A program made the position numbers and the translations under genes. The notes beneath the pieces were generated by a model, which was given only the letters and a program-made list of their open reading frames with translations, made no database searches and was not told the origin of the DNA. Positions 1 to 38,394 of a DNA stretch of 52,195 nt are shown piece after piece (positions within the stretch are counted from its first letter, which is position 1; each line of letters begins with the position of its first letter). This DNA comes from a virus. The stretch is taken from IMG/VR virus record IMGVR_UViG_3300017917_003289, positions 1-52,195 of that record; one strand, 5' to 3'.

Positions 1-246
1 GCAGTGCCCCGATGGTTGCTCTGGCGCAGGGGTAAACGCTTGCCACCTCGGGTAGTCTGCGTATTGGTCAAGGCCAATCCCCTCCCGCTCAATGATCGGA
101 CCGCCTTGTGACCAGTCGGCTGAATAGTTTCCATCATCGGCTTCGCGCATGCCGTCGATGTAGCTCTCCAACGTGTCCGGGCTTGCGCCTTCGCACTTCG
201 CCACTGCCCAGTCAAGCGCGGCCCCTGTCAGTTCACTTGTCTTCAT
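1..246 (-). CDS. ninX: NinX-like phage protein (DUF2591), runs off the left edge
   Basis: The start is an ATG at 246, preceded by AAGGAG at a 7-base spacing. The 82 visible residues open with MKTSELTGAALDWAVAKCEG and contain an SADWSQGGPIIERE block; both are hallmarks of the DUF2591/NinX family of small phage proteins, whose function is unknown. The frame is open at base 1. Because 246 is divisible by three, it continues in frame into the protein open at 52195, where the next residues would be ALRTAIEQAEK. If the molecule is circular the product is about 187 residues, with a NinX N-terminus fused to a different C-terminal region. A palindromic operator-like site lies directly upstream of the ribosome site. 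Family call is confident; function is not known. Confidence 0.75.
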   Translation of the reverse strand, partial: MKTSELTGAALDWAVAKCEGASPDTLESYIDGMREADDGNYSADWSQGGPIIEREGIGLDQYADYPRWQAFTPAPEQPSGHC

Positions 247-258
247 GTCGTTCTCCTT

Positions 259-272
259 AATCCCATGGGATT
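259..272. promoter_or_regulatory. Palindromic operator-like site 1 (AATCCC-AT-GGGATT)
   Basis: This is a perfect 14-bp palindrome whose end abuts the AAGGAG ribosome site of the NinX-like gene. It is one of eight copies found only between 259 and 3883. It could be a DNA operator. In RNA it could also fold as a 5-bp hairpin with a CAUG loop beside the Shine-Dalgarno sequence. Confidence 0.6.
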
Positions 273-277
273 TGTTG

Positions 278-946
278 TCAGTTGTTTTTCGGGTTGTTCA
301 GTGTTAGCCATGCGCGCACGGCGGTGCGCACCTCGTCGATGCTGTCCGGCGTGTCGTTTCTATACAACGCCATGGTGTTGGTCAGGAATGCTTCCATGTC
401 CTGCAGCTCGGCCACGGTCTCGGCGCTGGGGTAGTCCACGGGCACGTCCTGTGTCATGCGGCGCAGTGCTTCCTGTGTGCGGGTGAGGCAGCTCATCAGG
501 GTTCCCATGCGTGTGGCCGAGCGCAGCCGCGGCTTGTCCACCTCGGGCAGGTCGCCGTGGATGGACTGCAGGATGAGCCGGGCGTGTTCTGGGTTGCAGC
601 GATCGCCACCTCGGTTGACTGCCTGGGTGTAGAACACCTGCTCGTTGGCCTCCTCGCGGGTGCAGCCGTGGTTGATCATGTAGGCTCTGATGAACCCGTC
701 GACGTAGTACCGCTCGTGCCTGTTGGTCGTGACCGAGTAGGTCAGTGGAGTGACCCAGAGCTCGGACTTCTGCGTGTGGTGGTTGACCACGACCTGTGCG
801 ATCTTGGTGCTGTAACTGATACCTGCAGCGGACATGGTGAATAGCTTCGAGAGCGTGCTGTGTGTGCCCACTGATTCCATGCGGCTGCCCTTGGCGGGCT
901 GGCTGCGGCCGAACTTCTCGCCGACTTTTGCGTGTGATGTGCTCAT
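278..946 (-). CDS. Hypothetical early protein, 222 residues
   Basis: I do not recognise this protein. The ATG at 946 is chosen because AAGGA lies 8-9 bases upstream; the open frame continues further upstream but would run into the neighbouring sigma-like gene. The N-terminus is polar and basic (MSTSHAKVGEKFGRSQPAKG). The middle contains a mixed aromatic and charged segment (YYVDGFIRAYMINHGCTREE) and the C-terminal half is predicted helical, with many Leu, Arg and Glu residues. There is no signal peptide or membrane segment. It sits in the early operon between the sigma-like gene and the NinX-like gene, with an operator-like palindrome immediately before its ribosome site, so it is probably co-regulated with them. 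Gene call is good; function is open. Confidence 0.75.
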   Translation of the reverse strand: MSTSHAKVGEKFGRSQPAKGSRMESVGTHSTLSKLFTMSAAGISYSTKIAQVVVNHHTQKSELWVTPLTYSVTTNRHERYYVDGFIRAYMINHGCTREEANEQVFYTQAVNRGGDRCNPEHARLILQSIHGDLPEVDKPRLRSATRMGTLMSCLTRTQEALRRMTQDVPVDYPSAETVAELQDMEAFLTNTMALYRNDTPDSIDEVRTAVRAWLTLNNPKNN

Positions 947-959
947 GGTGTGTGTCCTT

Positions 960-973
960 AATTCCGTGGGATT
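960..973. promoter_or_regulatory. Operator-like site 2 (AATTCC-GT-GGGATT, one mismatch)
   Basis: This copy has one mismatch in the left half-site. Its end runs straight into the AAGGA ribosome site of the gene starting at 946, the same arrangement as site 1. It overlaps the last codon region of the sigma-like gene. Confidence 0.55.
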
Positions 974-1412
974 AGTTGATGTCGTTGATGTCGTTGACCC
1001 CGAGTGCTCGCAGCACTCGCTTGCAGTCGCGCTCGGCCCTGCGCTCAATCTGCCGGACGCGCTCGCGTCCAACGCCTAGAGCGTCGCCGATCTCTTCGAG
1101 CGTCATGTCCATGATGTTGCGCATGTACAGCACCTGTAAGCGCCGGTGGGACATGACGTACCTGTCCGTCGCCTCTTGCAGCAGCGCGCACAGCCGCTGC
1201 GCGTCGAGCCTTCGCTCCACATCGCTGATGTCATATTCCGAGCTTGTGGGCGCAGGCAGCTCAGGCAGTGGCGGCAGGTCTTCGTCCTTGGCGTAGCCGT
1301 AGTAATAGACTGCGCTCTTGAGCTCCGACGATGCACCAGCCAGCACGCCGTAGGGCAGTGTGCGGCCACGCAAGACTCTTCCGTATGGTCGGTTGTGTGT
1401 GTCTAATCCCAT
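972..1412 (-). CDS. Sigma-70 region 4-like transcription factor
   Basis: This 146-residue protein's C-terminal third (about residues 95-137) matches sigma-70 region 4: a helix ending LYMRNIMDM, then TLEEIGDALGVGRERVRQIERRAE, the helix-turn-helix that reads the -35 element. Regions 1 and 2, needed for -10 recognition and core binding, are not visible; the first 65 residues are unlike any sigma domain I know. It is therefore more likely a sigma-like activator, appropriator or anti-sigma than a complete sigma factor. The ATG at 1412 lies inside an operator-like palindrome and is preceded by GAGGAG at 8 bases, so expression is probably controlled at that site. Its targets are unknown; early or middle phage promoters are plausible. 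Confidence 0.8.
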   Translation of the reverse strand: MGLDTHNRPYGRVLRGRTLPYGVLAGASSELKSAVYYYGYAKDEDLPPLPELPAPTSSEYDISDVERRLDAQRLCALLQEATDRYVMSHRRLQVLYMRNIMDMTLEEIGDALGVGRERVRQIERRAERDCKRVLRALGVNDINDIN

Positions 1413-1418
1413 GGGATT
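1405..1418. promoter_or_regulatory. Operator-like site 3, contains the start codon of the sigma-like gene
   Basis: This is a perfect AATCCCATGGGATT palindrome. The central ATG is the start codon of the minus-strand gene 972-1412. The palindrome also holds the TAA stop of the preceding gene (1417-1419 begins in it). In mRNA, AAUCC/GGAUU would place AUG in the loop of a small hairpin. Confidence 0.6.
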
Positions 1419-1626
1419 ACTCCTCGTGTTCAAATAGGTCTGTATAGGCATCCAGTGGGTCTGTGTCCTGGAAGTCGTTGGTGTCGGACTGCACAATGGA
1501 TGCCGCCTCGTCCTGCACCCAGAGTGAGGCCCCGGTGAGCTGGTCGGTAATCTCGTAAGCCCAGCCGTTGCCGTAGCTGTCGACGTGGTAGCGCCCGTCA
1601 ATGGTGATGAATGAGTTGGTGATCAT
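1417..1626 (-). CDS. Small acidic hypothetical protein, 69 residues
   Basis: The start is an ATG at 1626 whose ATGA overlaps the stop of the upstream zinc-ribbon gene, which suggests translational coupling. The protein begins MITNSFITIDGRYHVDSYGN and reads like a small beta-rich domain. The tail is strongly acidic and ends DLFEHEE. There is no membrane segment or known motif. It lies between the zinc-ribbon gene and the sigma-like gene in the early operon, and its stop codon sits in operator-like site 3. I do not recognise a family. Confidence 0.7.
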   Translation of the reverse strand: MITNSFITIDGRYHVDSYGNGWAYEITDQLTGASLWVQDEAASIVQSDTNDFQDTDPLDAYTDLFEHEE

Positions 1627-1841
1627 CGGTTGCCCCTGTGTGATGAGTTGAGACCTTGGAGCAGGCTGTAGTCCGTGACCACGATGTAGTTGGACTTGGG
1701 CATCGGCACGATGGTGTGCCGTGTGGAGCGGGCTGCTGATTCTCCGCAGGGCAGGCAGGTGTGCTTGCCAGCACGTTCCCATCGAAGGGTCGACACTGGG
1801 TCGCCGCAAGTAACGCAGCGGTATGCGCGTGATGTAGCCAT
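1623..1841 (-). CDS. Small zinc-ribbon protein
   Basis: This 72-residue protein has two CxxC knuckles (CVTCGDP near residue 10 and CLPCGES near residue 30) spaced as in a single zinc ribbon. It is followed by a short basic stretch and a Ser/Arg-rich tail. The ATG at 1841 is chosen because TGAGG lies about 7 bases before it; an in-frame ATG at 1853 is also possible but has no clear ribosome site. It is the first gene after the host-like promoter at 1949-1977 and overlaps the next gene by ATGA. It probably binds nucleic acid or RNA polymerase; this is inferred only from the zinc ribbon and the context. Confidence 0.7.
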   Translation of the reverse strand: MATSRAYRCVTCGDPVSTLRWERAGKHTCLPCGESAARSTRHTIVPMPKSNYIVVTDYSLLQGLNSSHRGNR

Positions 1842-1882
1842 GATGAACCTCATGAGGTTGGTGAGTTAACAAGTGAGTGGCT

Positions 1883-1896
1883 AATCCCGTGGGATT
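1883..1896. promoter_or_regulatory. Operator-like site 4 (within 18-bp palindrome 1881-1898)
   Basis: AATCCCGTGGGATT is extended by CTA/TAG on the flanks, making it the best-preserved copy. It lies about 45 bases downstream of the predicted start of transcription from the early promoter and upstream of the zinc-ribbon gene, where bound protein would act as a roadblock or repressor. Confidence 0.6.
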
Positions 1897-1948
1897 AGAC
1901 CGGGCTGAGAGAAGAGAACCCGAAGGCGCTCTCCAACTCAGTGAATAT

Positions 1949-1977
1949 ATTGTACCAGATTACCCGTGGTTTGTCAA
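1949..1977 (-). promoter_or_regulatory. Strong host-type promoter for the early operon
   Basis: On the minus strand TTGACA (1977-1972, perfect consensus) is followed by a 17-bp spacer and TACAAT (1954-1949, one mismatch). Transcription would start near 1942 and read the zinc-ribbon gene, the sigma-like gene and onward through the left edge. The -35 element lies inside the end of the RHH gene. Confidence 0.7.
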
Positions 1978-2430
1978 GTCAGGCGACTCAGCAGTGCCTG
2001 TCAGCGCGCGGTACTGCAGGTCTGCCCGGAGTCGCTGCAGCTTCGTCGCGTGGGCTTCGCTGTGCCACGGCAGCACGGGGTTGTACTCGCCACCCTTCGC
2101 GACCTCAACGCACGCAGTCTCGATGAACTCGGTCGATACGCCCAGCTCTCTGGCGGTCTGCACCTTTGACAGCCCACGCAGCGCGAGGCCTCTTGCCTTT
2201 GCAACAATAAGCCTGTAATTTACTGAGCCGTCTTCCAGCCTTGGTAGCTCAGGTGCAGGTGCAGGGGATGCAACGGGTGCAGGCTCTGCAACATCCAGCA
2301 GCCCGCGGTCGCGCGCGGCGGTCTTCAGCATACGCCGAATAAGGCTGGACAGCGGCAGGTACTCAAGCTCAGCGAGGGCAGCGAATAGTGCGTGATCTTC
2401 GTCGGAAACGCGGAAATTGATGACTTTCAT
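1960..2430 (-). CDS. Ribbon-helix-helix candidate repressor
   Basis: This 156-residue protein has an N-terminal block of residues 1-45 (MKVINFRVSDEDHALFAALA, then LSSLIRRMLKTAA) that fits a ribbon-helix-helix DNA-binding fold: a short beta strand followed by two helices. A Pro/Ala-rich linker (about 50-65) joins a second helical domain containing a possible helix-turn-helix (SKVQTARELGVSTEFIETAC, about 92-111). ATG 2430 has GGAG upstream. It is transcribed separately, upstream of the early promoter, with operator-like sites on both sides (1883-1896 and 2556-2569). It is the best candidate in the window to bind the repeated palindrome and to control itself. The binding specificity is inference. 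Confidence 0.65.
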   Translation of the reverse strand: MKVINFRVSDEDHALFAALAELEYLPLSSLIRRMLKTAARDRGLLDVAEPAPVASPAPAPELPRLEDGSVNYRLIVAKARGLALRGLSKVQTARELGVSTEFIETACVEVAKGGEYNPVLPWHSEAHATKLQRLRADLQYRALTGTAESPDLTNHG

Positions 2431-2463
2431 CGAAAAAGCTCCAAAAAGTGTATGTGGAACTAC

Positions 2464-2492
2464 AGTATAACTGCTGCTACTCTGCTTCTCCA
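2464..2492 (-). promoter_or_regulatory. Weak candidate promoter of the RHH gene
   Basis: TATACT (2469-2464) lies 17 bp after TGGAGA (2492-2487), 34 bases before the RHH start codon. The -10 is good but the -35 is poor. The nearest palindrome is about 65 bases further upstream. Confidence 0.3.
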
Positions 2493-2555
2493 GATAAAGC
2501 CTAAAAAAGATAAGTGCTTTACACATTCGCGCCTGCTAAAGCGGCTTTTTGTGCA

Positions 2556-2569
2556 AATCCCACGGGATT
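2556..2569. promoter_or_regulatory. Operator-like site 5 (AATCCC-AC-GGGATT)
   Basis: This copy lies upstream of the RHH gene, about 64 bases beyond its candidate -35, and sits between two CTGCTAAAG repeats. Confidence 0.55.
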
Positions 2570-2618
2570 AGCTGCTAAAGTGGCCCGGAAATACTTGACT
2601 TTAGTGTGTGGGTATGCG

Positions 2619-2827
2619 CGTAAGTCGTTGATTTTAAAGGGATTAGTCGATTAGCACGTAGTTTGGAGATAAGAGAGAGTCTGGAGGGGGAAGGGGATGC
2701 TGGTCGAAACGGTTTTGGCCAGACCCGTTTTTTTCCAGGGGTTGCTCTATTATTTTACTAACTAATCTACTAAACAATATATATATACCCCCCTATGCCC
2801 GTTCTACGGCCGTAAGTCGTTGATTTT
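2619..2827. repeat. 17-bp direct repeat pair
   Basis: CGTAAGTCGTTGATTTT occurs at 2619-2635 and again at 2811-2827, separated by the AT-rich tract. Both copies are in the same orientation. Confidence 0.6.
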
Positions 2828-2838
2828 GCAGGCTTTTT

Positions 2839-2852
2839 AATCCCACGGGATT
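2839..2852. promoter_or_regulatory. Operator-like site 6 (AATCCC-AC-GGGATT)
   Basis: This copy lies 12 bases after the second 17-bp repeat, inside the gene-free region and away from any start codon. That position favours a DNA-level role over a purely translational one. Confidence 0.55.
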
Positions 2853-2961
2853 ACCCGCAATTTACAAATCTTTAGCAGCAATTTCGGAATGGCTCAACCA
2901 TGCGGGTTACAGCTGCTAAAGCCATCATTTTTATAACGATCGCAGGGGGGGTATGTCGTCG

Positions 2962-2989
2962 GTCGTTTGTCGTTTGTCGTTTGTCGTTT
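2962..2989. repeat. Four tandem heptamers GTCGTTT
   Basis: Four perfect consecutive copies of GTCGTTT are followed 12 bases later by operator-like site 7. Short tandem heptamers of this kind are typical of origins or of slippage-prone control sequences. Confidence 0.6.
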
Positions 2990-3000
2990 ATCTGTCGGCT

Positions 3001-3014
3001 AATCCCGTGGGATT
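3001..3014. promoter_or_regulatory. Operator-like site 7 (AATCCC-GT-GGGATT)
   Basis: This copy sits at the right end of the repeat-rich region, directly after the heptamer array. Confidence 0.55.
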
Positions 3015-3045
3015 GCGCGCAGCCCGTCGCACACCGCGGCCAGCC

Positions 3046-3077
3046 TGATAGTAGGTTGCACGCTACGTGATAGTAGT
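3046..3077 (-). repeat. CCTACTATCA element (copy 1) and a degenerate neighbour
   Basis: On the minus strand CCTACTATCA occupies 3055-3046; ACTACTATCA follows at 3077-3068. The same element recurs at 3903-3894, 4014-4005 and 4764-4755, always in intergenic DNA of this left arm. Confidence 0.45.
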
Positions 3078-3093
3078 GATGATAGTTTTTGCG

Positions 3094-3120
3094 AAAAAAA
3101 GCCCCGGCTGGGCCGGGGCT
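3094..3120 (-). terminator. Rho-independent terminator after the 210-residue gene
   Basis: Read on the minus strand, AGCCCCGGC pairs with GCCGGGGCT (9-bp stem, 3-base loop) and is followed by a run of seven T. It lies just after the stop of the gene at 3136-3768 and separates that unit from the origin-like region. Confidence 0.85.
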
Positions 3121-3135
3121 GGTGGGTGGCTTGGG

Positions 3136-3768
3136 TTAAGCGCTGGCGCTGCCCTTGATCTTGCGCCCTTGGGTGGCCTTGTCCAGGCGGTACCCCATCT
3201 CGATCAGTCGCGCGGTGATGCGGCCATGGTAAACGGCATCCGTCAAGTATTCCTCCAGATTGTCAAGCCAGGCGGAAAACGCGTCAATTTCGGTTTTGAC
3301 ATCCGGCGCCGGGTCGGCGTTTTTGGGCGCGGCGGGTTTGCGGCCAGCGCCGGCTTTGCGGCCGAGTCCGTGCACTTCGCGCACCTGCTTCGCGGCGTCA
3401 CGCATGGCATGCTTCGGCATGGCCACGGCTTCGGCGGCGGTGATGTGCTGCTCGATTTTCTTGCCATCCTTGCCCATGGCGTCAACGGTGACCGGGGTTT
3501 GTGCGGCGGCCAGTAGCGTCAGCGCGTCCTTGAAAAGCGCTTTTACATTGTGACCTGCGGCCTTGAAGTCGTCCGCGTAAAGCGCGCACACCGACTCGAT
3601 CCGTTCGCCCATGGGCTGGGCCGGGTTCAGTTGACCGGCGGCGGCTTGCGCGGCTTCTTTGCACAGGGCCAGCATGGATGCTGCTGCGCGGCCGGCCTTG
3701 TTGATGAGGGCGCCCACGGTGGCGTCACGGTGGCCGAGTACGGCCGCTTGGGTTTGGGTTGCTTTCAT
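3136..3768 (-). CDS. Hypothetical helical early protein, 210 residues
   Basis: I do not recognise this protein. It is Ala-, Lys- and Gln-rich and predicted almost fully helical through residue 130. A basic linker (GRKAGAGRKPAAPKNADPAP, about 135-155) precedes a C-terminal helical segment ending in a basic tail. The composition suggests a DNA- or protein-binding scaffold. It is a monocistronic unit: it has its own promoter (3836-3864), an operator-like site just upstream and a terminator just downstream. That independent, apparently repressible control suggests a product needed at a defined time, such as immediate early. No function is assigned. Confidence 0.75.
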   Translation of the reverse strand: MKATQTQAAVLGHRDATVGALINKAGRAAASMLALCKEAAQAAAGQLNPAQPMGERIESVCALYADDFKAAGHNVKALFKDALTLLAAAQTPVTVDAMGKDGKKIEQHITAAEAVAMPKHAMRDAAKQVREVHGLGRKAGAGRKPAAPKNADPAPDVKTEIDAFSAWLDNLEEYLTDAVYHGRITARLIEMGYRLDKATQGRKIKGSASA

Positions 3769-3835
3769 GTTGCTTTACCTTTCCTTGATCCCGGAAACCG
3801 CCGGGTCGGTATGGCATCTCGCTGCCATGGAATCT

Positions 3836-3864
3836 ATTATACATCATCCAGCGGGCAAGTCCAC
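3836..3864 (-). promoter_or_regulatory. Promoter of the 210-residue gene, GTGGAC-N17-TATAAT
   Basis: A perfect TATAAT (3841-3836) lies 17 bp from GTGGAC (3864-3859). The -35 region reads TAAATTGTGGACTT and closely matches the promoter at 4697-4725 (AAACTGTGGATTT). It is not a consensus TTGACA, so an activator or the phage sigma-like factor may help. Confidence 0.55.
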
Positions 3865-3869
3865 AATTT

Positions 3870-3883
3870 AATCCCACGGGATT
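3870..3883. promoter_or_regulatory. Operator-like site 8 (AATCCC-AC-GGGATT)
   Basis: This copy abuts the -35 side of the promoter at 3836-3864. A bound protein here could repress or, from this upstream position, activate. Confidence 0.6.
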
Positions 3884-3885
3884 GG

Positions 3886-4014
3886 CCCGGGCATGATAGT
3901 AGGCGGCGGGGCATGGGCGTCCGTCTGGTGACGTGGCCATGTTGCGCGCAGGTCGTCGCATGGTGGGGCCAGCACAGGCTGGCACGGCTGTCAAGCCCCG
4001 GGCATGATAGTAGG
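3886..4014 (-). repeat. 18-bp direct repeat carrying the CCTACTATCA element (copies 2 and 3)
   Basis: The minus-strand reading is CCTACTATCATGCCCGGG at 3903-3886 and 4014-3997, identical over 18 bp and 111 bp apart. A fourth, shorter match (CCTACTATCATCCCC) lies at 4764-4750. Confidence 0.6.
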
Positions 4015-4026
4015 AAGGTTGGGCAA

Positions 4027-4049
4027 AAGAAAAAGCCCCCGAAGGGGCT
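4027..4049 (-). terminator. Rho-independent terminator after the 165- and 32-residue genes
   Basis: On the minus strand AGCCCC-TTC-GGGGGCT is followed by TTTTTCTTTT. It begins 5 bases after the stop codon of the small membrane ORF, which supports that ORF being the last gene of its unit. Confidence 0.85.
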
Positions 4050-4053
4050 GGTG

Positions 4054-4152
4054 TCAGGGCTTCATCACGAACGCAAAATACAGGATGAAGGGCAGCGCGA
4101 AAAGGGCAGCAGCCACTGCTGCCCTCGCGAGATCAATCGCAAACGATTTCAT
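4054..4152 (-). CDS. Tiny membrane protein, 32 residues
   Basis: The sequence opens MKSFAIDLARAAVAAALFAL, then runs through PFILYFAFV to a short basic end: one hydrophobic helix from about residue 10 to 29. The ATG at 4152 overlaps the end of the gene at 4133 and has AGGTGG 6 bases upstream. The terminator follows the stop directly. Ribosome site, membrane helix and placement make a real gene likely. The function is unknown; small single-pass phage proteins often act on the host membrane or as exclusion or lysis modulators. Confidence 0.6.
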   Translation of the reverse strand: MKSFAIDLARAAVAAALFALPFILYFAFVMKP

Positions 4153-4630
4153 ACTGGGCCACCTCTTCGAGTTTTGTACCGACCTGCACTTTGCGGCATG
4201 ATGTTGCCGCTTCAGAGATGTTGGCCACGAACTTCAGGTTCACGGTCACGCCAGCGACATTTTGGCTGAAGCGGAACACGCGCTGGCTCGACCAGTCGCT
4301 GGCATAGTCCTTGGTGCTGATGGCCTCGAACCCACAGGCCATGGCGCGCTCGATCAGGTCAACGATCTTGCCGGTCTTCAGGCTGTCCACGTAACCCTCG
4401 AGGGCGATGTCGATCTCAGGGTCGTTGTATGTGAACGCGGCGATGTTCGACCAGCGAGTGAACTCGATCTCGCTGGCATAGTCCGCGACCATGTTGGCCA
4501 CGTGAATGGCAGCGCGCATGACGGGCGCGAGTTTTTGCAGGCGCGCGACGTCGCGCTTTGCGTCAGCGAGTTGCTCGCGACGAGTGGCCACCAGTTTGGT
4601 GTGGGAAAAGGTAGATGCTTTGCGTGCCAT
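4133..4630 (-). CDS. Hypothetical early protein, 165 residues
   Basis: I do not recognise this protein. It starts MARKASTFSHTKLVATRREQ and the first 45 residues are a basic helix rich in Arg and Lys. The remainder is mixed alpha/beta with a short beta-rich stretch (RVFRFSQNVAGVTVNLKFVA, about 117-136). There is no signal or membrane segment. It is the minus-strand gene nearest the divergent control region, and together with the overlapping 32-residue ORF it forms a unit with promoter at 4697-4725 and terminator at 4027-4049. It is probably among the first genes expressed; the function is open. Confidence 0.75.
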   Translation of the reverse strand: MARKASTFSHTKLVATRREQLADAKRDVARLQKLAPVMRAAIHVANMVADYASEIEFTRWSNIAAFTYNDPEIDIALEGYVDSLKTGKIVDLIERAMACGFEAISTKDYASDWSSQRVFRFSQNVAGVTVNLKFVANISEAATSCRKVQVGTKLEEVAQYEIVCD

Positions 4631-4696
4631 GTTGGCCTCCAGTAAGTAAGTCCCCAGATCGCTGGGCCGTCATGCCGTTTTGTTTGGCATGGGTGA

Positions 4697-4725
4697 ATTA
4701 TACCGTGAATTGCGATTAAATCCAC
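4697..4725 (-). promoter_or_regulatory. Promoter of the 165-residue gene, GTGGAT-N17-TATAAT
   Basis: A perfect TATAAT (4702-4697) lies 17 bp from GTGGAT (4725-4720). The -35 surroundings are shared with the promoter at 3836-3864. The predicted start of transcription is about 60 bases before the gene. Confidence 0.55.
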
Positions 4726-4754
4726 AGTTTAAACTTAATGAGCGCGGCTGGGGA

Positions 4755-4764
4755 TGATAGTAGG
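4755..4764 (-). repeat. CCTACTATCA element (copy 4)
   Basis: The minus-strand reading is CCTACTATCATCCCC over 4764-4750. It lies about 30 bp upstream of the -35 of the promoter at 4697-4725, where an upstream activator site would be expected. Confidence 0.45.
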
Positions 4765-5054: not shown

Positions 5055-5603
5055 TTGCACGCATCCATCAACGCTGACCAGCTGCTTCGCAGCCTGGCCC
5101 TCTCCATTGCCAGAAACAACGTGGGTGCCATGCTCCCACTGCACACGGTGCTCGCTTCAGAGGGGTTGGTGCAGTCCGAGTACGACGAAATCGCCAAGAA
5201 CCCCCAGTTTCAGACCTACGTCACCCAGTACGAGGCCGAACTCAAGGAGTCAGGGTTCTCTTTTGCGGCAAAGAGCAGGGTTCTGGCTGAGGATTTGCTG
5301 CCTGTGGCCTACCACATGGCCCGCGACGTGGACGTTCCGGCCGCAACCAGGGCAAAAATGATCGAAAACCTGGTCGAATGGGGTGATCTGAAGCCCAAAA
5401 ACAGCAGTTTGCAGGCCCAAGGCCCCGGTTTTTCGATCACTTTTAACATCCCGAGTACCCAAAATACGCCCCCGCAGACCATCGTTTTGGAGGCGGAAAC
5501 CCCGGAAAAACCCTCGAAAACTGACCAAAAACTGACAAAAACGCCCATTTTTGTCCTTGAAGAGCCCGAGGATTACGTCTACGCAGGGGATGACATCCTG
5601 TGA
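5055..5603 (+). CDS. Probable terminase small subunit
   Basis: This 182-residue protein lies directly before the large terminase and overlaps it by four bases, the usual place of the small subunit that recognises phage DNA for packaging. The first 110 residues are helical and could form a DNA-binding and oligomerisation core; the last 60 are Pro-, Thr- and Lys-rich and end in an acidic tail (EEPEDYVYAGDDIL). The start is a TTG at 5055, chosen because GAGGAGG sits 7 bases upstream and no ATG fits. The sequence itself shows no diagnostic motif, so the name rests mainly on position and size. Confidence 0.6.
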   Translation: MHASINADQLLRSLALSIARNNVGAMLPLHTVLASEGLVQSEYDEIAKNPQFQTYVTQYEAELKESGFSFAAKSRVLAEDLLPVAYHMARDVDVPAATRAKMIENLVEWGDLKPKNSSLQAQGPGFSITFNIPSTQNTPPQTIVLEAETPEKPSKTDQKLTKTPIFVLEEPEDYVYAGDDIL

Positions 5604-7045
5604 GCATCAACTACACCCCGGTGCCGAGCGTCACCCCTTACCTCCTCTCTGACAAATTCCAGAGCTTCATCATTGGGCCGGTGGGTTCCACGAAGACGAC
5701 TGCGTCTCTGATGAAGATTCCGCTGGAGGCCAAGAAGATGGCCAAGTGCCAGGACGGCATCCGACGTTCGCGGTGCGCGGTCGTTCGCAACACGCGGCAA
5801 ATGTTGCTGGACTCGACCATCAAGGACTTCCTGAACCTGTTCCCCGAGGGGCAGGCCGGGGTGTACATGCGCACCGAGCTCAAGTACATCCTCAAGTTCG
5901 ACGATGTGGAGTGCGAGGTGCTGTTCCGGGGCCTGGATGACGCCGACGACGTGCGCCGGCTGCTGTCGCTGCAGCTCTCGTTCGCCATGGTTGACGAGGT
6001 GCGGGAGATCAACGCGGACGTGTTCGACGCGCTCACTGGTCGTGTGGGGCGGTATCCCAACGGCATGCTCGTGCCGCATCGGCCGCAGTGGGGCGTCGAC
6101 GAGAAAGGCAACCCGGTCCAGGGCTGCGTGGACGACTACGGCAACCAGATGAAGAAAGTCTGGGGGGCGACCAACCCGCCGGACCTCGACAGCCACTGGG
6201 AACAGTACTTCACCAACGCCAACGAGGACAAAGTCCACGTGACCATCCAGCCCAGCGGCCGCTCACCCGAGGCCGACTGGATCAAGCACCTGCCCAGCGG
6301 CTACTACGACGACCTGCAGGTCGGCAAGAGTGAGGACTGGATCGACGTGTACATCGACGGCAAGTGGGGCAAGAGCCTCAGCGGCACGCCGGTGTACGAC
6401 AAGACCTTCGTGCCAGACTTCCACGTGGCCAAGGAAGAGCTCAAGGCAGTAGGCAACGCAGACTACCCCATCACGATCGGCATGGACTTCGGGCGCACAC
6501 CGTCAGCCGTGTTCATGCAGCGCGATCCACGCGGGCGGGTTCTCATACTGAGCGAAATCACCTCGGACAACATGGGCCTGGAGACGTTCATCAACACCAA
6601 GCTCAACCCGCACGTGGCCACACACTACCCCGGGCACACGTTCGTCGTGGCGCCGGACCCGGCCGGGTACGCCAAGACCCAGGCCAGTGAGATGAGCCTC
6701 GTCGACCAGCTGCGAGACGCCGGGTTCCAGTGCGCGCGGCCGCCCACCAACGACCCGGACAAGCGGATTCAGGCAGTGGAGCGCCTGCTGAACCAGCAGC
6801 TCGAGGGCAAGGCCATGTTCCTCGTCGACCCGGGGTGCACCCAGCTCATCAAGGGCTTCAGGTCCGGGTACCGGTACAAGGTCAAGAAGAACGGCGAGAT
6901 GGAAGACAAGCCGGACAAGAACGAGTTCAGCCACGTGCACGACGCGCTGCAGTACGGCTGCGCGGTCATTGACATGAACATCCGGGGCTTCGGGCAGCGC
7001 ACACAGCGGCGGGAGATCAGGAAAGCAAGCTACCGCTATGCTTGA
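5600..7045 (+). CDS. terL: Terminase large subunit
   Basis: This 481-residue packaging motor and headful nuclease contains both expected domains. The ATPase shows GPVGSTKT (Walker A, residues 26-33), hydrophobic FAMVDE (Walker B, D132-E133) and GATNPP (coupling motif, 189-194). The RNase H-like nuclease shows acidic residues in GMDFGRT (D296), APDPAG (D353) and HVHDAL (D448). The start is a GTG at 5600 overlapping the stop of the small subunit. Length is normal for the family. It cuts and pumps concatemeric DNA into the prohead through the portal encoded next. The closest known groups cannot be named without a search. Confidence 0.92.
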   Translation: MSINYTPVPSVTPYLLSDKFQSFIIGPVGSTKTTASLMKIPLEAKKMAKCQDGIRRSRCAVVRNTRQMLLDSTIKDFLNLFPEGQAGVYMRTELKYILKFDDVECEVLFRGLDDADDVRRLLSLQLSFAMVDEVREINADVFDALTGRVGRYPNGMLVPHRPQWGVDEKGNPVQGCVDDYGNQMKKVWGATNPPDLDSHWEQYFTNANEDKVHVTIQPSGRSPEADWIKHLPSGYYDDLQVGKSEDWIDVYIDGKWGKSLSGTPVYDKTFVPDFHVAKEELKAVGNADYPITIGMDFGRTPSAVFMQRDPRGRVLILSEITSDNMGLETFINTKLNPHVATHYPGHTFVVAPDPAGYAKTQASEMSLVDQLRDAGFQCARPPTNDPDKRIQAVERLLNQQLEGKAMFLVDPGCTQLIKGFRSGYRYKVKKNGEMEDKPDKNEFSHVHDALQYGCAVIDMNIRGFGQRTQRREIRKASYRYA

Positions 7046-9217: not shown

Positions 9218-9460
9218 ATGAAGATTTTTGTGGGCCTCAAGCCCGATCGGCAGCAGATGCAAGCGCTCATGCGCTGCAAGCTGCCAGAAAGCGAGCAGTT
9301 GTTGGCGTTGTTCCGCGCCAGGCTGGAGGAGACGAAGTCTGCTCTGGTTGTGGCGGACGACTACCACCGCATCTGCAAACTTCAAGGTCGTGCGGAGGTC
9401 CTCGCAGATTTCCTCGAGGCGGTTGAGAAATCGTCCGAGGTTTTCGACCGGATCAAGTGA
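9218..9460 (+). CDS. Small protein in a moron-like cassette, 80 residues
   Basis: The protein starts MKIFVGLKPDRQQMQALMRC and is mostly helical, with the character of a small soluble domain; I recognise no family. The start at 9218 has no Shine-Dalgarno sequence but lies at the predicted transcription start of a strong promoter, so the mRNA may be leaderless. A hairpin terminator overlaps the stop codon. Promoter, gene and terminator inserted between portal and scaffold match the layout of a moron, an independently expressed accessory gene. A structural or assembly role remains possible, since small genes do occur at this position. Confidence 0.7.
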   Translation: MKIFVGLKPDRQQMQALMRCKLPESEQLLALFRARLEETKSALVVADDYHRICKLQGRAEVLADFLEAVEKSSEVFDRIK

Positions 9461-22500: not shown

Positions 22501-22991
22501 CCAGATACCTCATCGCAGCTGCTGTTACCCTGCTTATAGTCCTGGGCCTGTACCGCTGGGGCTACCACAACGGCTGGGGCACCCGCGACGCAGAGATGCA
22601 GGCCGAGATTGCCAAGGCCAACGAAGCGGCGCGCCAGACCGAACAGAAGCTCACCGAGCAGATCAACTCCAACGCAACCAAACTCCAGGAGGCCAACCAT
22701 GCCCTCGACCAAAAGTCTTCTGCACTTGATCGCGCTATCCGTGCTGGCCGGGTGCGCCTCCCCGCCCCAAGTTGCGTACAAGCCCCCGCAAGTCCCGCCG
22801 CTCCCACCGGAGATCGGAACGAAGCGCCAGGCCAACCTGACCGACAGGCTGACCCAGCTCCTGATGCCGAGCGAGAAACCCTCCGACTCATCGCCCAAAT
22901 CGCAGCAGACGGAGACAAAGCCATCAACCAGCTCAACGCCTGTATCGACGCCTACAACCAAGTAAGGGAGCAGCTCAATGGTCAACGCTGA
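22497..22991 (+). CDS. Rz: Rz-like inner-membrane spanin
   Basis: This 164-residue protein has an N-terminal membrane anchor (RYLIAAAVTLLIVLGLYRWG, residues 3-22) and a long periplasmic coiled coil (about 33-85, AEIAKANEAARQTEQKLTEQ). It ends in a helical segment with LNACIDAYNQVREQL. This is the layout of i-spanin Rz, which links inner and outer membranes and fuses them at the end of lysis. A lipoprotein frame (Rz1) is embedded inside in the +1 register, the strongest support for the call. It overlaps the holin candidate (ATGA) and the endolysin gene. Confidence 0.85.
   Translation: MTRYLIAAAVTLLIVLGLYRWGYHNGWGTRDAEMQAEIAKANEAARQTEQKLTEQINSNATKLQEANHALDQKSSALDRAIRAGRVRLPAPSCVQAPASPAAPTGDRNEAPGQPDRQADPAPDAERETLRLIAQIAADGDKAINQLNACIDAYNQVREQLNGQR
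22699..22965 (+). CDS. Rz1: Rz1-like outer-membrane lipoprotein spanin, embedded in Rz
   Basis: An 88-residue frame lies fully inside the Rz gene. ATG 22699 has AGGAGG 6 bases upstream. The signal sequence MPSTKSLLHLIALSVLAGC ends in a lipobox (LAGC, Cys19). The mature part is Pro-rich (PPQVAYKPPQVPPLPPE), as typical for o-spanins, with a Ser/Pro/Thr tail. It would be lipid-anchored in the outer membrane and bind Rz. At 70 mature residues it is somewhat longer than the lambda protein. Confidence 0.85.
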   Translation: MPSTKSLLHLIALSVLAGCASPPQVAYKPPQVPPLPPEIGTKRQANLTDRLTQLLMPSEKPSDSSPKSQQTETKPSTSSTPVSTPTTK

Positions 22992-32535: not shown

Positions 32536-35500
32536 ATGCCGATCTTCAACATTCAGCAACTGAGAGACTCCGCTCCGGCGGAGTTCCGCGATCTTCCTTC
32601 TGATGAGCTGGTGCGGCGATACAGCCAGCAGACGGGTGTCCCGTTTGAACAGGCGGCCGACTTTTTCGGCGTTGCTCCTCGTGGCACCTTGGGGGAGATG
32701 GGCCGGCAGCTTGTTGGCGGCGCGGTTGTTGATCTGCCCCGCATGGTGGGCCAGGGCCTGCAATACACCGGTGTCGCGCCAGAGTTCGGGCGGGAGATGG
32801 CGCAGGCGGCCGAGGCCCGCGCGCCGATGTACGCCCCTGATGTCCGCGGTCGTGGGTTGCTTGGCCAGGCCGGTGTGTATGGTGCTCGTGGGCTGGCTCC
32901 CGCGCTGTCTGTTGCCCCGCTGGCGTTCGTTCCCGGCGGGCAGGTTGCAGCTCCTGCAGCCGCTGCCGCGCTGTTCGGCACCTCGGCCGCGCAAGAGACG
33001 TACGAGAAGCTGATTTCCCAGGGCGTTTCAGAGGAGGAAGCCGCCGCGGCGGCTCGACGCACTGGTCTGATCCAGGGTCCGCTGGAAGGCGCTGCAACGG
33101 CTGTCGGCCTGCGCGCGGTGCGCCCGGCCATGGCTGCTGTGCGAGGCACCCCTACTGCCGCACGGGTCGCAGAAGCGGCCACTGATACAGGCGTGCTTCG
33201 CCCACTGGCGCGCGGGTTGGCCATCAACGCCCCCGTGCAGGCTGGCACTGAAGTTGCCCAGGACGTCGGCACAGAGCTGGTCGAGCGAGCATACGGCGCC
33301 CGCCCCGAAGACCTCGGCGAGATCGCTCGGCAGTCCGCCCTGGGTGGCGCCGGCCTCACCCTGTTGCTGGGCCCACTCGCAGCTGGCGGGCAAGTTGCTC
33401 GCTCTCGTCGCGCCGCAGCGCTCAAAGAAGCGTTGTATGGAGACAACACTCCGATCGAGGTCCGCGCCCAGGCCATGGACTTGATTGCTGCGGAAGCCCG
33501 CCGCCAAGGCGTCGCCGAGCAGGACATCGGTACCTGGATGGATGAACAGTTCGCCGCTGAGGACGCGCGCACCGAAGCGCTTCGCGCTGCCGAGGTCGAG
33601 CGGCGCAACGCAGCCATAAATCTGCTGGGTGAAAAAGCGCAAGGCCTGGAAGGCCTGCAACAGCCCGCGTTTGCGTCGCTGGATCAGCAGCGCGCGTTTG
33701 AGCAGGGCATGGCGGGCGTACAGCTCGAAGCTCCGTTCTCCTCGCTCGGTCAACAGCAGGCGTTTGAGCAAGGTCTCCAAGCCGCGAGCTTGGCCAATAT
33801 CGAGCGCACCGGCCAGCAATACCAAGACCTCATGGGCGGCCGCGCCAGCACCCTGATGCAAGCCCAGGACCTGGGCCAGCAGGCACAAGAAGTCATGGCC
33901 CCGCAGCAGCGTGGCCTCGAGGCTGCGCAACGCGCCGGCGAGCAGTGGCAAGAAGTCCGCGCAGGCAAGACCCGCCTGCAGATGGAGATCGAGGACATCG
34001 GCCGTGAGTGGCAGAAACGCGCCGCGGAGATTCCGCAACCGGTTACTGGCGAGCTGACCCGTGGTCAGCGTGCTGCGCTTCGTGGCCCCGAGGGCCGTCG
34101 TCTGCGCCCCACGTCCACTCCCATCACCCCCGTCGAGGGTGGCCCGATGGCCACCACGCTGCTGCAGCCGCCGCAAGCTGCACCCAGCTCGCCACTCCCC
34201 GCTCCTGCTGCCGCGCCGTCCAGTCTGCTGACCGAGCGCCCGGCCGAGGCTGCACCGGTTGTTTCTCCTCCCAGCGGTGCCCCCGCTGTTCCAACCCCTG
34301 CTGCGCCGGCCGCAGCAGGGGGCTCTTTGGAACAACCCATGGCCCCCCAGGAACAGCGTGAACTCCAGCGCTTGATCGACGCCGCCGACAGCACTGACAC
34401 CGGGCGCGCTCTCCCCGCTGCTGTACGAGGTGCCGAAACCGTCAAGGCCCCTGGCAAAGCCACGATCACCGACCAGACGCTGCGCAAGATTCGCGACGCC
34501 CTGGTGTACGGGCGTGAAGCTACTGGTGTGGATGAAGGCACGCAGCGCGTCATCAGCGCGCTCAACTACTTCACCGAGGCCTACGAGAAGTACCTGCGTG
34601 CTGGCGACAAGGTCACGCAACGCCGCAAGCTGGTCAAAAAAGACGCTGTCGCCGAGACCGACAAGGCCGTCGAAGACCTGAACATGGCCGCACAAACTGC
34701 GCGGCAGGCGCTGGCTGAATTGGGCGAAGCGGTCGGCGGCAACGCCAAAAACGTCGAAGCCGTTGTTCGCCTCGTCAAAGACATGGTGCAGGGCAAGATC
34801 GTCACCCCGGGGCGCACCAAGGCTGACACGATCAAGGCCGCTGCGAAACTCGATACTGTTCTGTCGCAAGGCTGGGCTGCCGCCAAGCGCGAAGTCTTCT
34901 TGCCTGAGAATGTGGACTTGGCTGATGTGCGCGGCGGCGCTGTCCGGCAATCTCGTGAAGTGGCCGCCACTGGCGAGATGTCGCAGATCGAGAAGGCCGC
35001 CACCGAGGGCATCTACGTCAACAAGGAGACCGGCACGCTCCGCGGCATTGCCGCGGTCATGCACTATCTGCGCCGCTTCGGCACTCCCATGGAGCGCCAG
35101 CTTGCTGTGGCGTTGCGCGAAGCGTTCGTGGCCCAGGAGAACCCTGTGCAGGTGCAGTTCATCGACAGCGGCAACCCGCGGTTCGACCCTGCTACCAACA
35201 CGATCTACATTCGCCGCGACGAATCGCCAGAAGTTTTGCTGCATGAGGCGTTCCACGGAGCCCTACAGTCGTATGTCTACCGCAACCCCAACGATCCCGC
35301 AGTGGTCGCGCTCAAGCGCGCGCTCAAGGACGTTGTCGGCTTCAAGGGCGCGCTGACTGGCAAAGCCAAGGAAGTGCAGGACCTGCTCAAGAAGCTGGTG
35401 GCGGAGAAGAAAGAGCTGGACGCTGTGCTGGAGCTGGTCTCCTATGGCACCACGCTCAATGACTTCCGCCGCGCCATGCAAGCCATGCCGTCTCGCGGGG

Positions 35501-38394
35501 TTCCCGCTCAGTTCCTGGCGTCGGTCAACAAGATGTGGGCTGCGATTAAGCGCGCGGCAAGCCGCATGCTGGGCGATAAGCCCTCGCTGGCTTCCGATGT
35601 GCTGCAGTCGTCCATGGAGCTGCTCGACCAGGCCCGCAAGAAGGCGCCCCAGGCAGGCATGGGCAACGTGCTCGAGGCCGCCGTGCAGACCACCAAGCCC
35701 CTGAGCGACGCCAAAGCCGCGGCCGCCCTGGGCGTGTCCGAGCAGGACTACAGCCGCTGGGCCGGAAGCAACCTGATCAACCTGCTGCCTACGCAACGCC
35801 TCTTCGAGGCCGTGGGCTGGAGCGAGGCCAACGCCAAGAAGTTCGTGGGCAAAGCCAGCACCAAGTTCAAGGACCTGGTCAGCAAAAACTTCCCAGGCGC
35901 CGAGATCGCCCTGGGTCTGATCAACTCGCGCTACGCTGTCAACACATCGGTGTCGCAGGTCATGGACCGCTTCAAGCTGGACAAGGGCATCGGCTACCAG
36001 TACGCTGAGGACCTGGCCAATGTCATCTCGCGCCGCCCGGCAGCGGAGGTGAACGCGTTGTTCGCCTACCTCGATGGCAACAAGAAGGCCCTCGATGCCC
36101 TGCCCGACTCCGCCAAGCTCAAAGCCAACGCAGACAAGCTCAAGGAGTGGTTCGACCTGTACGTGGCAGACCTGTCCGACGTTGAGCAGCGGTACTTCAA
36201 GAGCCGCAAGTTCTCCGAGACGCTGCTGTTCCCCGAGCGCACCGAGCAGGTGGCCGGCGGCACATTCGGCCTGGGCAAGATCAACGAGGTGCTGGGCCTC
36301 AAGCGCAAGAGCGAGACCGAACTGGATCAGAACTGGTTCACCAAGGACGCGAACGGCGATCTGCTGCTCGATGGCGACATGTTCCAGGTCTTCAAGATCG
36401 ACAACACCGTCAAGCCCGGGGTCCCAGAAGCGGCAGGCTTTATGTCCGCAGCCCGCTTTGCCGAGTTGAACGGCAAGAACCCTGTCGGCTATTCCGTGGA
36501 CACCACGCGCAAGTGGGTGCATGAAGGGGCCTCCGACCAAGGGCATTCGTTCATCACCAACACCACTGCCCGCGACAAGATCGAGAACCAAAAAGCTGAC
36601 GACGTGGCCAACGCCCTGCGCAACACGGTTGCGGCCCTGGCCAACAACTACGCCAGCAAGCACTTCATCAAGTCGGTTTCCGAGATGGGTAGCGAGGGCA
36701 ACCCGCATGCCAGAGTCGCGTTCGACAGTCTCGACGCGCTCAACAAAGAGTATGGCACCAGCATCACCGAAGACAAGGTGCTGCCTGTGTCGTACGAGAT
36801 GTCGCGGTCCCCGCAGACCAAAGCCCTGTACCGCCAGAGCGGCACCTGGGTGAAGCTGCCCGAGTCCAAGGTCTATGGCGAGTTGTCCGGCAAGTACTTG
36901 CCCGGCCCGGTGTGGAACGCCATGGTCGACATGTCCGATCGGCAGCCGCTGGTTAACTTGCGTGCGGTCAACAACACCATGCGCTGGTTCAAGAAGTCCA
37001 AGACTGTCTGGAACCCTGGCACACACGTGACCAACGCGGCATCCAACGTGACCATGGCCATGCTGCACGACATCTCGTTCAGCACACTGCGCGACGCCAC
37101 CAAGCTGCTGGCCAAGTACGAAGTCTCCCCCAACTCGCTCACCAAAGCCGAGTTGGACCTGGTGCTGGCTTTCCGCGACTCTGGCGCCATGCTGGCTGAC
37201 TACTCCAGTGCCGAAGTCAAAGAGGCTTTGTACAAAGCCCACGCCGATAACCTGCGCGGTGGCGAGGACGTATCTGTCGCCCGCCGAGTGGCCGGCTGGA
37301 TGGGCATTGAGAAGGCCAAGGCCGAGTGGCTCAAGCAGCAGGCCGCCAAGGTCGGCAAAGGTGTCAACTACATCGACGACCTGACCTCGCAGATGTACGC
37401 CGCGGAAGACAACGTGTTCCGCTTGGCTGCGTTCCTCAAGACCGCGGGGACCCTGCAGGCGCGCGCAGGAGCTGCGGCTCCAACCGCCGAGATGCTGTCC
37501 GAAGCTGGCCTGTTTGCCCGCAAGGCGTTCGGCGACTACGACATCGACTCCAAGGCTGTGAAGGTTGCCCGCCAGACGGTGATGCCCTTCATCTCCTGGT
37601 TCTACGCCATGGCCCCTGTGCTTGGTCGCATCGCTGTGTACCAGCCCTGGAAACTAGCCAACGTGCTGGCAGCTTACATGCTGCTCGAGGCTGCGATGGG
37701 CGGCGGCGATGACGAAGAGCTGCGCAAGCAGGGGCCCGAGTCGATCCGCGAGCGGATGTTCTTCGGCACCATCGGCCCGTACATGCACATCCGCATCCCG
37801 TTCATGGGCGACGACCAGAACCCGGTGTACTACAAGCTCGGCGACTACTTCCCCATGGCGTCCATGACCAAGGGCCTGCCCAACGGCTTCATGGGCCAGT
37901 CGTGGTTCCCTGGCGGCTTGACTCCCAGCGGCCCGTTCGTGAGCGGCATCGCGGGCATGGTGCTGGGCGTCGACCCCTACACCGGTAAGTCGATTCACAA
38001 ACCGACGGATACAGACTGGGACAAGCTGTGGAACGTCACCAAGTTTGGCTACGACATCGTGACCCCGCCCGCCATCAGCAGCCGTCAGATCGGCCGCGTG
38101 GATGACTTGATCGCAGGCAAGACCGGCATCACCGGTGTGGAACCCTCTCCCCTGGTGCTGGCCCGCATGTTCGGCCTGAAAATGTACGACTACAACGTCG
38201 ACGAGCAGGCGGCGATCAACGAAATCGTGGTCAAGCGCATCGAGCGCGACTTCAAGTCCGCAATGACCAAGGCCAAGCGCGACGAGATGCGCAAAGGCTA
38301 CCCGGACTTCGAGGCTTTGGATACCGAACTGGACGACCTGCGCAAGCGCATGGAAAAAGAGATCGAAAAGGCCCGCGGTGGGGCCGAGGAGTGA
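32536..38394 (+). CDS. Giant putative ejection protein with HExxH protease motif, 1952 residues
   Basis: The largest gene of the window. It has an N-terminal helical domain (MPIFNIQQLRDSAPAEFRDL), then Ala/Gly-rich hydrophobic stretches (100-160). A very long Gln/Glu-rich coiled coil (about 290-500) follows, then a Pro/Ala/Ser-rich linker (about 540-615). A metallopeptidase motif HEAFH at 903-907 lies within SPEVLLHEAFHGALQSYVY. A large helical part follows, then hydrophobic segments near 1683-1730 (MPFISWFYAMAPVLG) and a charged C-terminal coil. It is likely injected with DNA, like the large internal proteins of T7-type phages; the zinc protease could act on peptidoglycan crosslinks or host proteins. 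There is no lysozyme-type transglycosylase motif. Confidence 0.75.
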   Translation: MPIFNIQQLRDSAPAEFRDLPSDELVRRYSQQTGVPFEQAADFFGVAPRGTLGEMGRQLVGGAVVDLPRMVGQGLQYTGVAPEFGREMAQAAEARAPMYAPDVRGRGLLGQAGVYGARGLAPALSVAPLAFVPGGQVAAPAAAAALFGTSAAQETYEKLISQGVSEEEAAAAARRTGLIQGPLEGAATAVGLRAVRPAMAAVRGTPTAARVAEAATDTGVLRPLARGLAINAPVQAGTEVAQDVGTELVERAYGARPEDLGEIARQSALGGAGLTLLLGPLAAGGQVARSRRAAALKEALYGDNTPIEVRAQAMDLIAAEARRQGVAEQDIGTWMDEQFAAEDARTEALRAAEVERRNAAINLLGEKAQGLEGLQQPAFASLDQQRAFEQGMAGVQLEAPFSSLGQQQAFEQGLQAASLANIERTGQQYQDLMGGRASTLMQAQDLGQQAQEVMAPQQRGLEAAQRAGEQWQEVRAGKTRLQMEIEDIGREWQKRAAEIPQPVTGELTRGQRAALRGPEGRRLRPTSTPITPVEGGPMATTLLQPPQAAPSSPLPAPAAAPSSLLTERPAEAAPVVSPPSGAPAVPTPAAPAAAGGSLEQPMAPQEQRELQRLIDAADSTDTGRALPAAVRGAETVKAPGKATITDQTLRKIRDALVYGREATGVDEGTQRVISALNYFTEAYEKYLRAGDKVTQRRKLVKKDAVAETDKAVEDLNMAAQTARQALAELGEAVGGNAKNVEAVVRLVKDMVQGKIVTPGRTKADTIKAAAKLDTVLSQGWAAAKREVFLPENVDLADVRGGAVRQSREVAATGEMSQIEKAATEGIYVNKETGTLRGIAAVMHYLRRFGTPMERQLAVALREAFVAQENPVQVQFIDSGNPRFDPATNTIYIRRDESPEVLLHEAFHGALQSYVYRNPNDPAVVALKRALKDVVGFKGALTGKAKEVQDLLKKLVAEKKELDAVLELVSYGTTLNDFRRAMQAMPSRGVPAQFLASVNKMWAAIKRAASRMLGDKPSLASDVLQSSMELLDQARKKAPQAGMGNVLEAAVQTTKPLSDAKAAAALGVSEQDYSRWAGSNLINLLPTQRLFEAVGWSEANAKKFVGKASTKFKDLVSKNFPGAEIALGLINSRYAVNTSVSQVMDRFKLDKGIGYQYAEDLANVISRRPAAEVNALFAYLDGNKKALDALPDSAKLKANADKLKEWFDLYVADLSDVEQRYFKSRKFSETLLFPERTEQVAGGTFGLGKINEVLGLKRKSETELDQNWFTKDANGDLLLDGDMFQVFKIDNTVKPGVPEAAGFMSAARFAELNGKNPVGYSVDTTRKWVHEGASDQGHSFITNTTARDKIENQKADDVANALRNTVAALANNYASKHFIKSVSEMGSEGNPHARVAFDSLDALNKEYGTSITEDKVLPVSYEMSRSPQTKALYRQSGTWVKLPESKVYGELSGKYLPGPVWNAMVDMSDRQPLVNLRAVNNTMRWFKKSKTVWNPGTHVTNAASNVTMAMLHDISFSTLRDATKLLAKYEVSPNSLTKAELDLVLAFRDSGAMLADYSSAEVKEALYKAHADNLRGGEDVSVARRVAGWMGIEKAKAEWLKQQAAKVGKGVNYIDDLTSQMYAAEDNVFRLAAFLKTAGTLQARAGAAAPTAEMLSEAGLFARKAFGDYDIDSKAVKVARQTVMPFISWFYAMAPVLGRIAVYQPWKLANVLAAYMLLEAAMGGGDDEELRKQGPESIRERMFFGTIGPYMHIRIPFMGDDQNPVYYKLGDYFPMASMTKGLPNGFMGQSWFPGGLTPSGPFVSGIAGMVLGVDPYTGKSIHKPTDTDWDKLWNVTKFGYDIVTPPAISSRQIGRVDDLIAGKTGITGVEPSPLVLARMFGLKMYDYNVDEQAAINEIVVKRIERDFKSAMTKAKRDEMRKGYPDFEALDTELDDLRKRMEKEIEKARGGAEE

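Follow-up and report, generated by a model that had tools for sequence, protein, structure and literature searches.

A palindrome array beside the terminase gene of uncultured phages and the phage protein family that most likely reads it

Dispersed phage sites and the palindromes of the window

The viral record IMGVR_UViG_3300017917_003289 contained an array of palindromes in a gene block beside its terminase gene, and we analysed this array, its relatives and its most likely ligand, the phage protein family A1, starting from the whole 52,195 bp stretch (the window). Classical phage operators are few and overlap the promoter core. Dispersed sites were described as stoperators in the cluster A mycobacteriophages (L5, Bxb1 and Trixie), in which the bound protein stops RNA polymerase (PMC6550527, PMC9283540). 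Stoperators are 13 bp long and asymmetric, number 20–30 per genome, are oriented with transcription and are recognized by the monomeric repressor of temperate phages (PMC6550527, PMC9283540). In cluster K mycobacteriophages, the start-associated sequence (SAS) is an asymmetric element of 13 bp which includes the Shine-Dalgarno sequence and stands a few bases ahead of the start codon, and the extended start-associated sequence (ESAS) consists of 17 bp imperfect inverted repeats with a variable spacer and a subcluster-specific consensus (PMC3203893). ESAS were taken for DNA-protein sites, for which no cognate protein was named (PMC3203893).

In the window, scanned with up to two mismatches allowed, the palindrome AATCCCRYGGGATT was found in eight copies, seven perfect and one with a single mismatch, all within positions 259–3883. 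The array motif form AATCCCNNGGGATT gave the same seven exact copies and one one-mismatch copy, and no further copy in the window. A first-pass annotation, made by a model from the letters alone, had placed the copies at 259, 960 (one mismatch), 1405, 1883, 2556, 2839, 3001 and 3870, all of which proved correct. It had also confined the motif to 3.6 kb, and this held: the sole additional match, at position 17392, carries two mismatches. Shuffled windows contained 1.1 matches at this tolerance with a maximum of 4, and none of 100 shuffles reached nine, which places the array beyond chance. The motif read backwards, as a control, had no match in the window. The array is confined to the leftward gene block 1–3883, adjoining the rightward terminase gene at 5600–7045. 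The 18 bp copy at 1881–1898, which had been singled out as the best one, is palindromic except for its GT centre.

A terminase search and a 16-mer search converged on one group of uncultured viral contigs. The larger array records mostly carry 8–11 copies (range 6–11), and the block that contains them extends over at most about 10 kb next to the terminase gene; outgroup records contained 0 or 1 copy. In the terminase tree the array trait is found in two deep lineages, whose terminases can be as little as about 52% identical to that of the window. The two central bases had been taken as free; we found purine-pyrimidine in 319 of the 321 distinct perfect sites of array contigs, and isolated matches from other phages show GA, TC or AA, for example, at this position. 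Both site and A1 protein are missing from three records (G007, G010 and G012) of 46–53 kb, which may be incomplete, and no palindrome array of their own was found in these three or in Pseudomonas phage Rollin, the closest cultured relative by terminase (38% identity). EBPR siphovirus 1 has merely one 177 bp stretch in common with the window. The site together with the ribosome binding site (RBS), AATCCCRYGGGATTAAGGAG, had no match in 84,980 prokaryote genomes, and the full 14 bp motif was not found printed in the literature searched.

Like the cluster A stoperators, the array comprises many copies of one short site, mostly outside promoters and in short intergenic spaces (PMC6550527, PMC9283540); apparently one phage protein serves all sites, a conserved site stands by the regulator's own gene, and among relatives the protein changes along with the site consensus. 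Unlike stoperators, the sites are palindromes of 16–18 bp in 8–11 copies within the early block only, with AC and GT centres both in coding sense; A1 is without known relatives and was matched in neither Pfam nor PHROG, and no tyrosine integrase (PF00589) was found in 22 records, in which other lysogeny modules were not searched for. With the SAS and ESAS of TM4 and other phages the array has in common that the repeats stand where non-structural genes start and sometimes contain the stop codon of the gene before (PMC3203893). It differs from SAS in that the RBS lies outside the motif and the distance to the start codon is variable, to more than 100 nt, and from ESAS in that a cognate protein and a specificity residue can be proposed. 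In lambda-type operators, too, a phage protein recognizes DNA palindromes, one of them at the regulator's own promoter, whereas most sites of the array are found at internal gene junctions or behind promoters.

Family A1 and its co-variation with the site

The proposed regulator is the 210 aa product of the gene at 3136–3768 (-), to which co-occurrence, co-variation and a structure model point, and its predicted recognition helix covers residues 73–87. When the proteins of nine array genomes and six other genomes were clustered, one family was present in 9/9 array genomes, and it was that of this gene. Family A1 was also found in one contig whose palindrome is altered, and in none of the five array-free genomes in the clustering. 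Among 30 records, a profile search found A1 in 17 of the 18 that carry four or more copies and in 0 of the 12 that carry one or none (Fisher test, about 1.5e-7); the sole exception, G023, is a 30.8 kb fragment whose array begins 517 bases from the contig end. The reverse search, from the A1 protein, gave 68 loci, most of them with the array, and in most of those without a palindrome copy the contig ended next to the gene or ATTCCC was present instead. From these sequence comparisons, the product of 3136–3768 (-) is most likely the ligand of the array. Some phages contain two A1 paralogues (L219 of G022, L135, L142 and L303).

The first-pass annotation had named another protein as the obvious ligand, the ribbon-helix-helix (RHH)-like product of 1960–2430 (-), which shows weak similarity to DUF6290, and a protein with sigma-70 region 4 (PF04545; 972–1412, -) as a second candidate. 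Both genes lie inside the array, yet neither protein is conserved with it. Homologues of the RHH protein were found in only few array contigs (phmmer, all loci), and none of the 10 array genomes searched contained the sigma-like protein. Both candidates were rejected by the searches among relatives, in the array genomes and with phmmer over all loci, and an explanation by either is in essence refuted, with a negligible probability left. In a scan of related phages, as the annotation had proposed, the motif array recurred across the clade and the RHH homologue did not track it.

A1 itself matched nothing in Pfam, PHROG, the PDB (by sequence), a phage collection, plasmids or prokaryote genomes. 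Its AlphaFold2 model, with a mean predicted local distance difference test score (pLDDT) of 85.8, shows helix 65–71, helix 73–87 and a beta hairpin 92–110. This predicted order of elements is that of a winged helix-turn-helix, and Foldseek confirmed no known fold; in BFVD it returned one relative, uncharacterized. A1 appears to be a new phage protein family, previously undescribed and without a recognisable solved relative.

The site and the protein changed together. Two contigs (L057 and L058) contain an A1 member and arrays which read ATTCCCRYGGGAAT, and a scan for this palindrome revealed additional arrays with A1 members in L303, L305 and L309. Among 60 distinct A1 sequences with known site, numbered as the window protein, residue 73 was His (52) or Asn (3) with AATCCC and Ala (4) or Ser (1) with ATTCCC, and it was the only alignment column which split both site classes fully (p = 1.8e-7, kinship not corrected for). 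Residue 73 is the first residue of the predicted helix 73–87 in the AlphaFold2 model, and His or Asn against Ala or Ser at an A-to-T exchange is chemically reasonable. The switched members occupy three places of the A1 protein tree in two phage lineages, because L303 has two paralogues, both changed; the specificity switch occurred at least twice. A distant member with Gly73 (L065) goes with a single AACCCCATGGGGTT upstream of its own promoter, and this member possibly has a third specificity. At 22698–22713 of this contig (G040), the single site upstream of the promoter of this divergent member (Gly73, Ser77) reads TAACCCCATGGGGTTA.

A host transcription factor might read the sites instead, with A1 as a linked passenger, and phages are known to borrow host regulators, CtrA sites in phages being one example (PMC9437464). 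The presence of A1 follows the array, however, its residue 73 co-varies with the site, and the site plus RBS was unmatched in the prokaryote genomes; we consider a host reader very improbable.

One genome of the group, G011, contained no A1 member. At gene starts in its corresponding genome region we found seven copies of TTAACTNNAGTTAA, two of which flank a 201 aa basic protein (L214:13452–14267), and L323:4015–4844 has the same arrangement, with three TTAACTNNAGTTAA copies and a 195 aa protein 64% identical to that of G011. Site and protein seem to have been replaced as a unit in G011 and L323. Homology of the G011 protein to A1 was rejected (hhalign probability 0.1, no profile similarity), and its structure model was poor (pLDDT 51.9).

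Placement of the sites and mode of action

Four sites of the window belong to the operon of a sigma-70-like promoter, TTGACA-17-TACAAT, at 1977–1949 (-; 11/12 matches). The site at 1883–1896 (AATCCCGTGGGATT) lies in the leader, about 47–60 nt behind the inferred start of this promoter. The site at 1405–1418 (AATCCCATGGGATT) is a junction site containing the likely ATG of the sigma-like gene (CCCATGGGA), and the annotation had rightly seen a start codon in one copy. It had also seen two copies running into a ribosome site, which we found at 259–272 (again AATCCCATGGGATT) and 960–973 (one mismatch, AATCCCACGGAATT in coding sense): they stand directly before the RBS (AAGGAG/AAGGA), the first at the junction to a NinX-like gene (1–246, -) and the second before gene 278–946 (-), homologues of which were found in 7/9 array genomes and 0/6 others. 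The NinX-like reading frame extends beyond the window start (position 1). The gene-free, origin-like gap had been credited with two copies and contains three: 2556–2569, upstream of the RHH gene; 2839–2852, with flanks kept in the relatives L012 and L187; and 3001–3014, behind the regulator gene and a terminator-like stem of nine pairs with a T run (3100–3120, -). The last site, 3870–3883, is the copy correctly said to abut a -35 element, that of the regulator's own sigma-70-like promoter TGGACT-16-TATAAT (3863–3836, -). In most relatives the regulator's own site also stands upstream of its -35, with a spacing of 6 to about 14 bp.

Across the clade, with sites oriented in coding sense and sigma-70 promoters accepted at 10 or more of 12 matches, 51 of 217 sites had a -10 element that ended 26–75 bp ahead of them, where random places would give about 2.4 (about 20-fold enrichment). 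In the detailed promoter list the distance was 36 to 85 bp, many promoters reading TTGACA-17-TAYAAT with 11–12 matches; promoter 1977–1949 with site 1883 is the example in the window. Sites at most 25 nt from the start codon were mostly without promoter, at internal gene junctions. The first three bases of the 16-mer were the TAA stop codon of the upstream gene in 96 of 205 cases, often with the RBS immediately after, and the start codon lay anywhere from inside the motif to more than 100 nt away, the RBS being outside the motif. Such exact positions at gene junctions, upstream stop codon included, would also suit recombination linkers which need no regulatory protein, but linkers leave the co-occurrence and co-variation of A1 and the fixed zone behind promoters unexplained, and hardly any credence can be given to them.

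Translational control had been raised as a rival idea, and the palindrome might be a hairpin beside the RBS in mRNA, to which A1 or a host factor would bind and which would serve translational control or processing. About 80% of oriented sites lie at most about 60 nt 5′ of the start codon, the 16-mer folds as a 6 bp stem of about -4 to -5 kcal/mol, and the leader of promoter 1977–1949 folds well (z -4.1). The mismatched sites speak otherwise: 11 of the 18 oriented one-mismatch sites are AATCCCRYGGAATT, with G>A at position 10 (window 960–973, L250, L252, L254, L275, L299 and L107), a form which destroys the mRNA stem (-0.6 vs -3.9 to -4.8 kcal/mol), and the mirrored change that would preserve a G-U pair was found at one site only. 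AC and GT centres both occur in coding sense, the purine-pyrimidine centre is unchanged on strand exchange, and Rfam gave no match. The regulator's own site is upstream of its promoter and outside its transcript, and other sites lie in gene-free DNA. The idea of translational control is weakened by the stem-breaking mismatch, the two-fold symmetric centre and the regulator's site, and a hairpin function is improbable. Double-stranded DNA is favoured as the target, because the purine-pyrimidine centre is symmetric, the common mismatch breaks the stem and the regulator's own site would not be transcribed with it. The annotation's suggestion of a phage regulon with a DNA target is strongly supported by an array which is kept across the clade, tracks a phage protein and co-varies with it in sequence; at the level of sequence, co-occurrence and co-variation give good support to A1 as the partner and DNA as the target.

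We consider it probable that the palindromes are DNA operators read by A1, and that they serve a roadblock-type repression of the early block. A1 would be made from its own strong sigma-70 promoter and would bind the palindromes. Binding is probably by a dimer, each half-site taking one predicted recognition helix (73–87), in which residue 73 may help to select the second base pair of the half-site. Most sites lie at about +30 to +80 behind other early promoters or at gene junctions inside an operon, and a dimer bound there would be unable to compete with RNA polymerase for the promoter and could block elongation at many places, in the manner of the mycobacteriophage stoperators. Since no promoter competition is possible at such positions, an elongation roadblock is likeliest. 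As A1, itself an early-block gene, accumulates, the early block would be turned down. The array, its conservation across the clade, its co-occurrence and co-variation with A1 and its placement relative to promoters and genes are computed results; we infer direct binding, the dimer, repression rather than activation and the timing, and the roadblock from the position of the sites.

Lysogenic immunity is not an obvious role, as no tyrosine integrase was found in the 22 records and the protein occurs in no prokaryote genome; these phages do not look temperate and are apparently virulent. It is possible, and we might tentatively speculate, that an undescribed family turns down the early genes of an apparently virulent phage through an elongation block at palindromes behind promoters and at gene junctions, with a specificity that changes by one residue where the recognition helix begins, and with a module swap in a sister lineage, in which an unrelated protein and its own palindrome (TTAACTNNAGTTAA) occupy the same operon. 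An unnamed protein family, spread over a clade of uncultured phages, would receive a likely function together with a binding site and a predicted specificity residue. Dispersed operators, which are best known in temperate mycobacteriophages, would gain another type of site, another reader protein and a place in phages that seem to be virulent. The replacement by an unrelated protein with a TTAACT palindrome suggests a route of regulator-operator module exchange.

A1 might also use the same DNA sites as an activator, an antiterminator-like factor or a DNA organiser (looping, segregation or replication). The regulator's own site just upstream of its -35, the three sites inside the gene-free, origin-like gap and the sites without any promoter would fit such a role. 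The spacing to the regulator's -35 is variable (6 to about 14 bp), unlike that of a fixed activator site, and most sites lie behind promoters or few bases before the RBS, with no promoter there to act on. We regard this explanation as unlikely for the array as a whole; at its own promoter A1 may act as an activator or in both ways.

Several observations weigh against roadblock repression by A1. The regulator's own site sits upstream of the -35, where a roadblock would leave transcription from that promoter untouched. The G>A change falls nearly always in the downstream half-site (11 vs 1), a bias for which a strictly symmetric DNA site gives no explanation. One contig (L300) has an A1 member with His73, yet no palindrome in its 11 kb. 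Foldseek found no known DNA-binding fold for the A1 model and no PDB match at E 0.001, and the switched sequences behind the residue-73 test number five and come from two phage lineages.

Other features of the window and its relatives

No terminal repeat was found at the record ends (1 and 52195). The gene-free gap contains a conserved non-coding element, CGTAAGTCGTTGATTTT, twice (2618–2635 and 2810–2827), which is also present in L012 and L187 and is a candidate origin. Five copies of TGATAGTAG were found in the gaps around the regulator gene (window 3046–4764), with similar ones by the same gene in relatives. Several early leaders open with a short 5′ hairpin, after which the palindrome follows (window 1942–1897, L276:5518–5575 and L298:1035–1073); the hairpin is perhaps an mRNA-stabilising 5′ stem. 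A ACTTGTTTACTTACT-like stretch recurs between palindrome and Shine-Dalgarno sequence in many genes and phages (e.g. L027, L250 and L254).

Contig L314, which is without the A1 family, contains three ATTCCCRYGGGAAT sites at 34 bp spacing (9330–9411), probably belonging to a different system. A 1952 aa protein of the window (32536–38394), without Pfam match, is kept in 9/9 array genomes compared and in G007.

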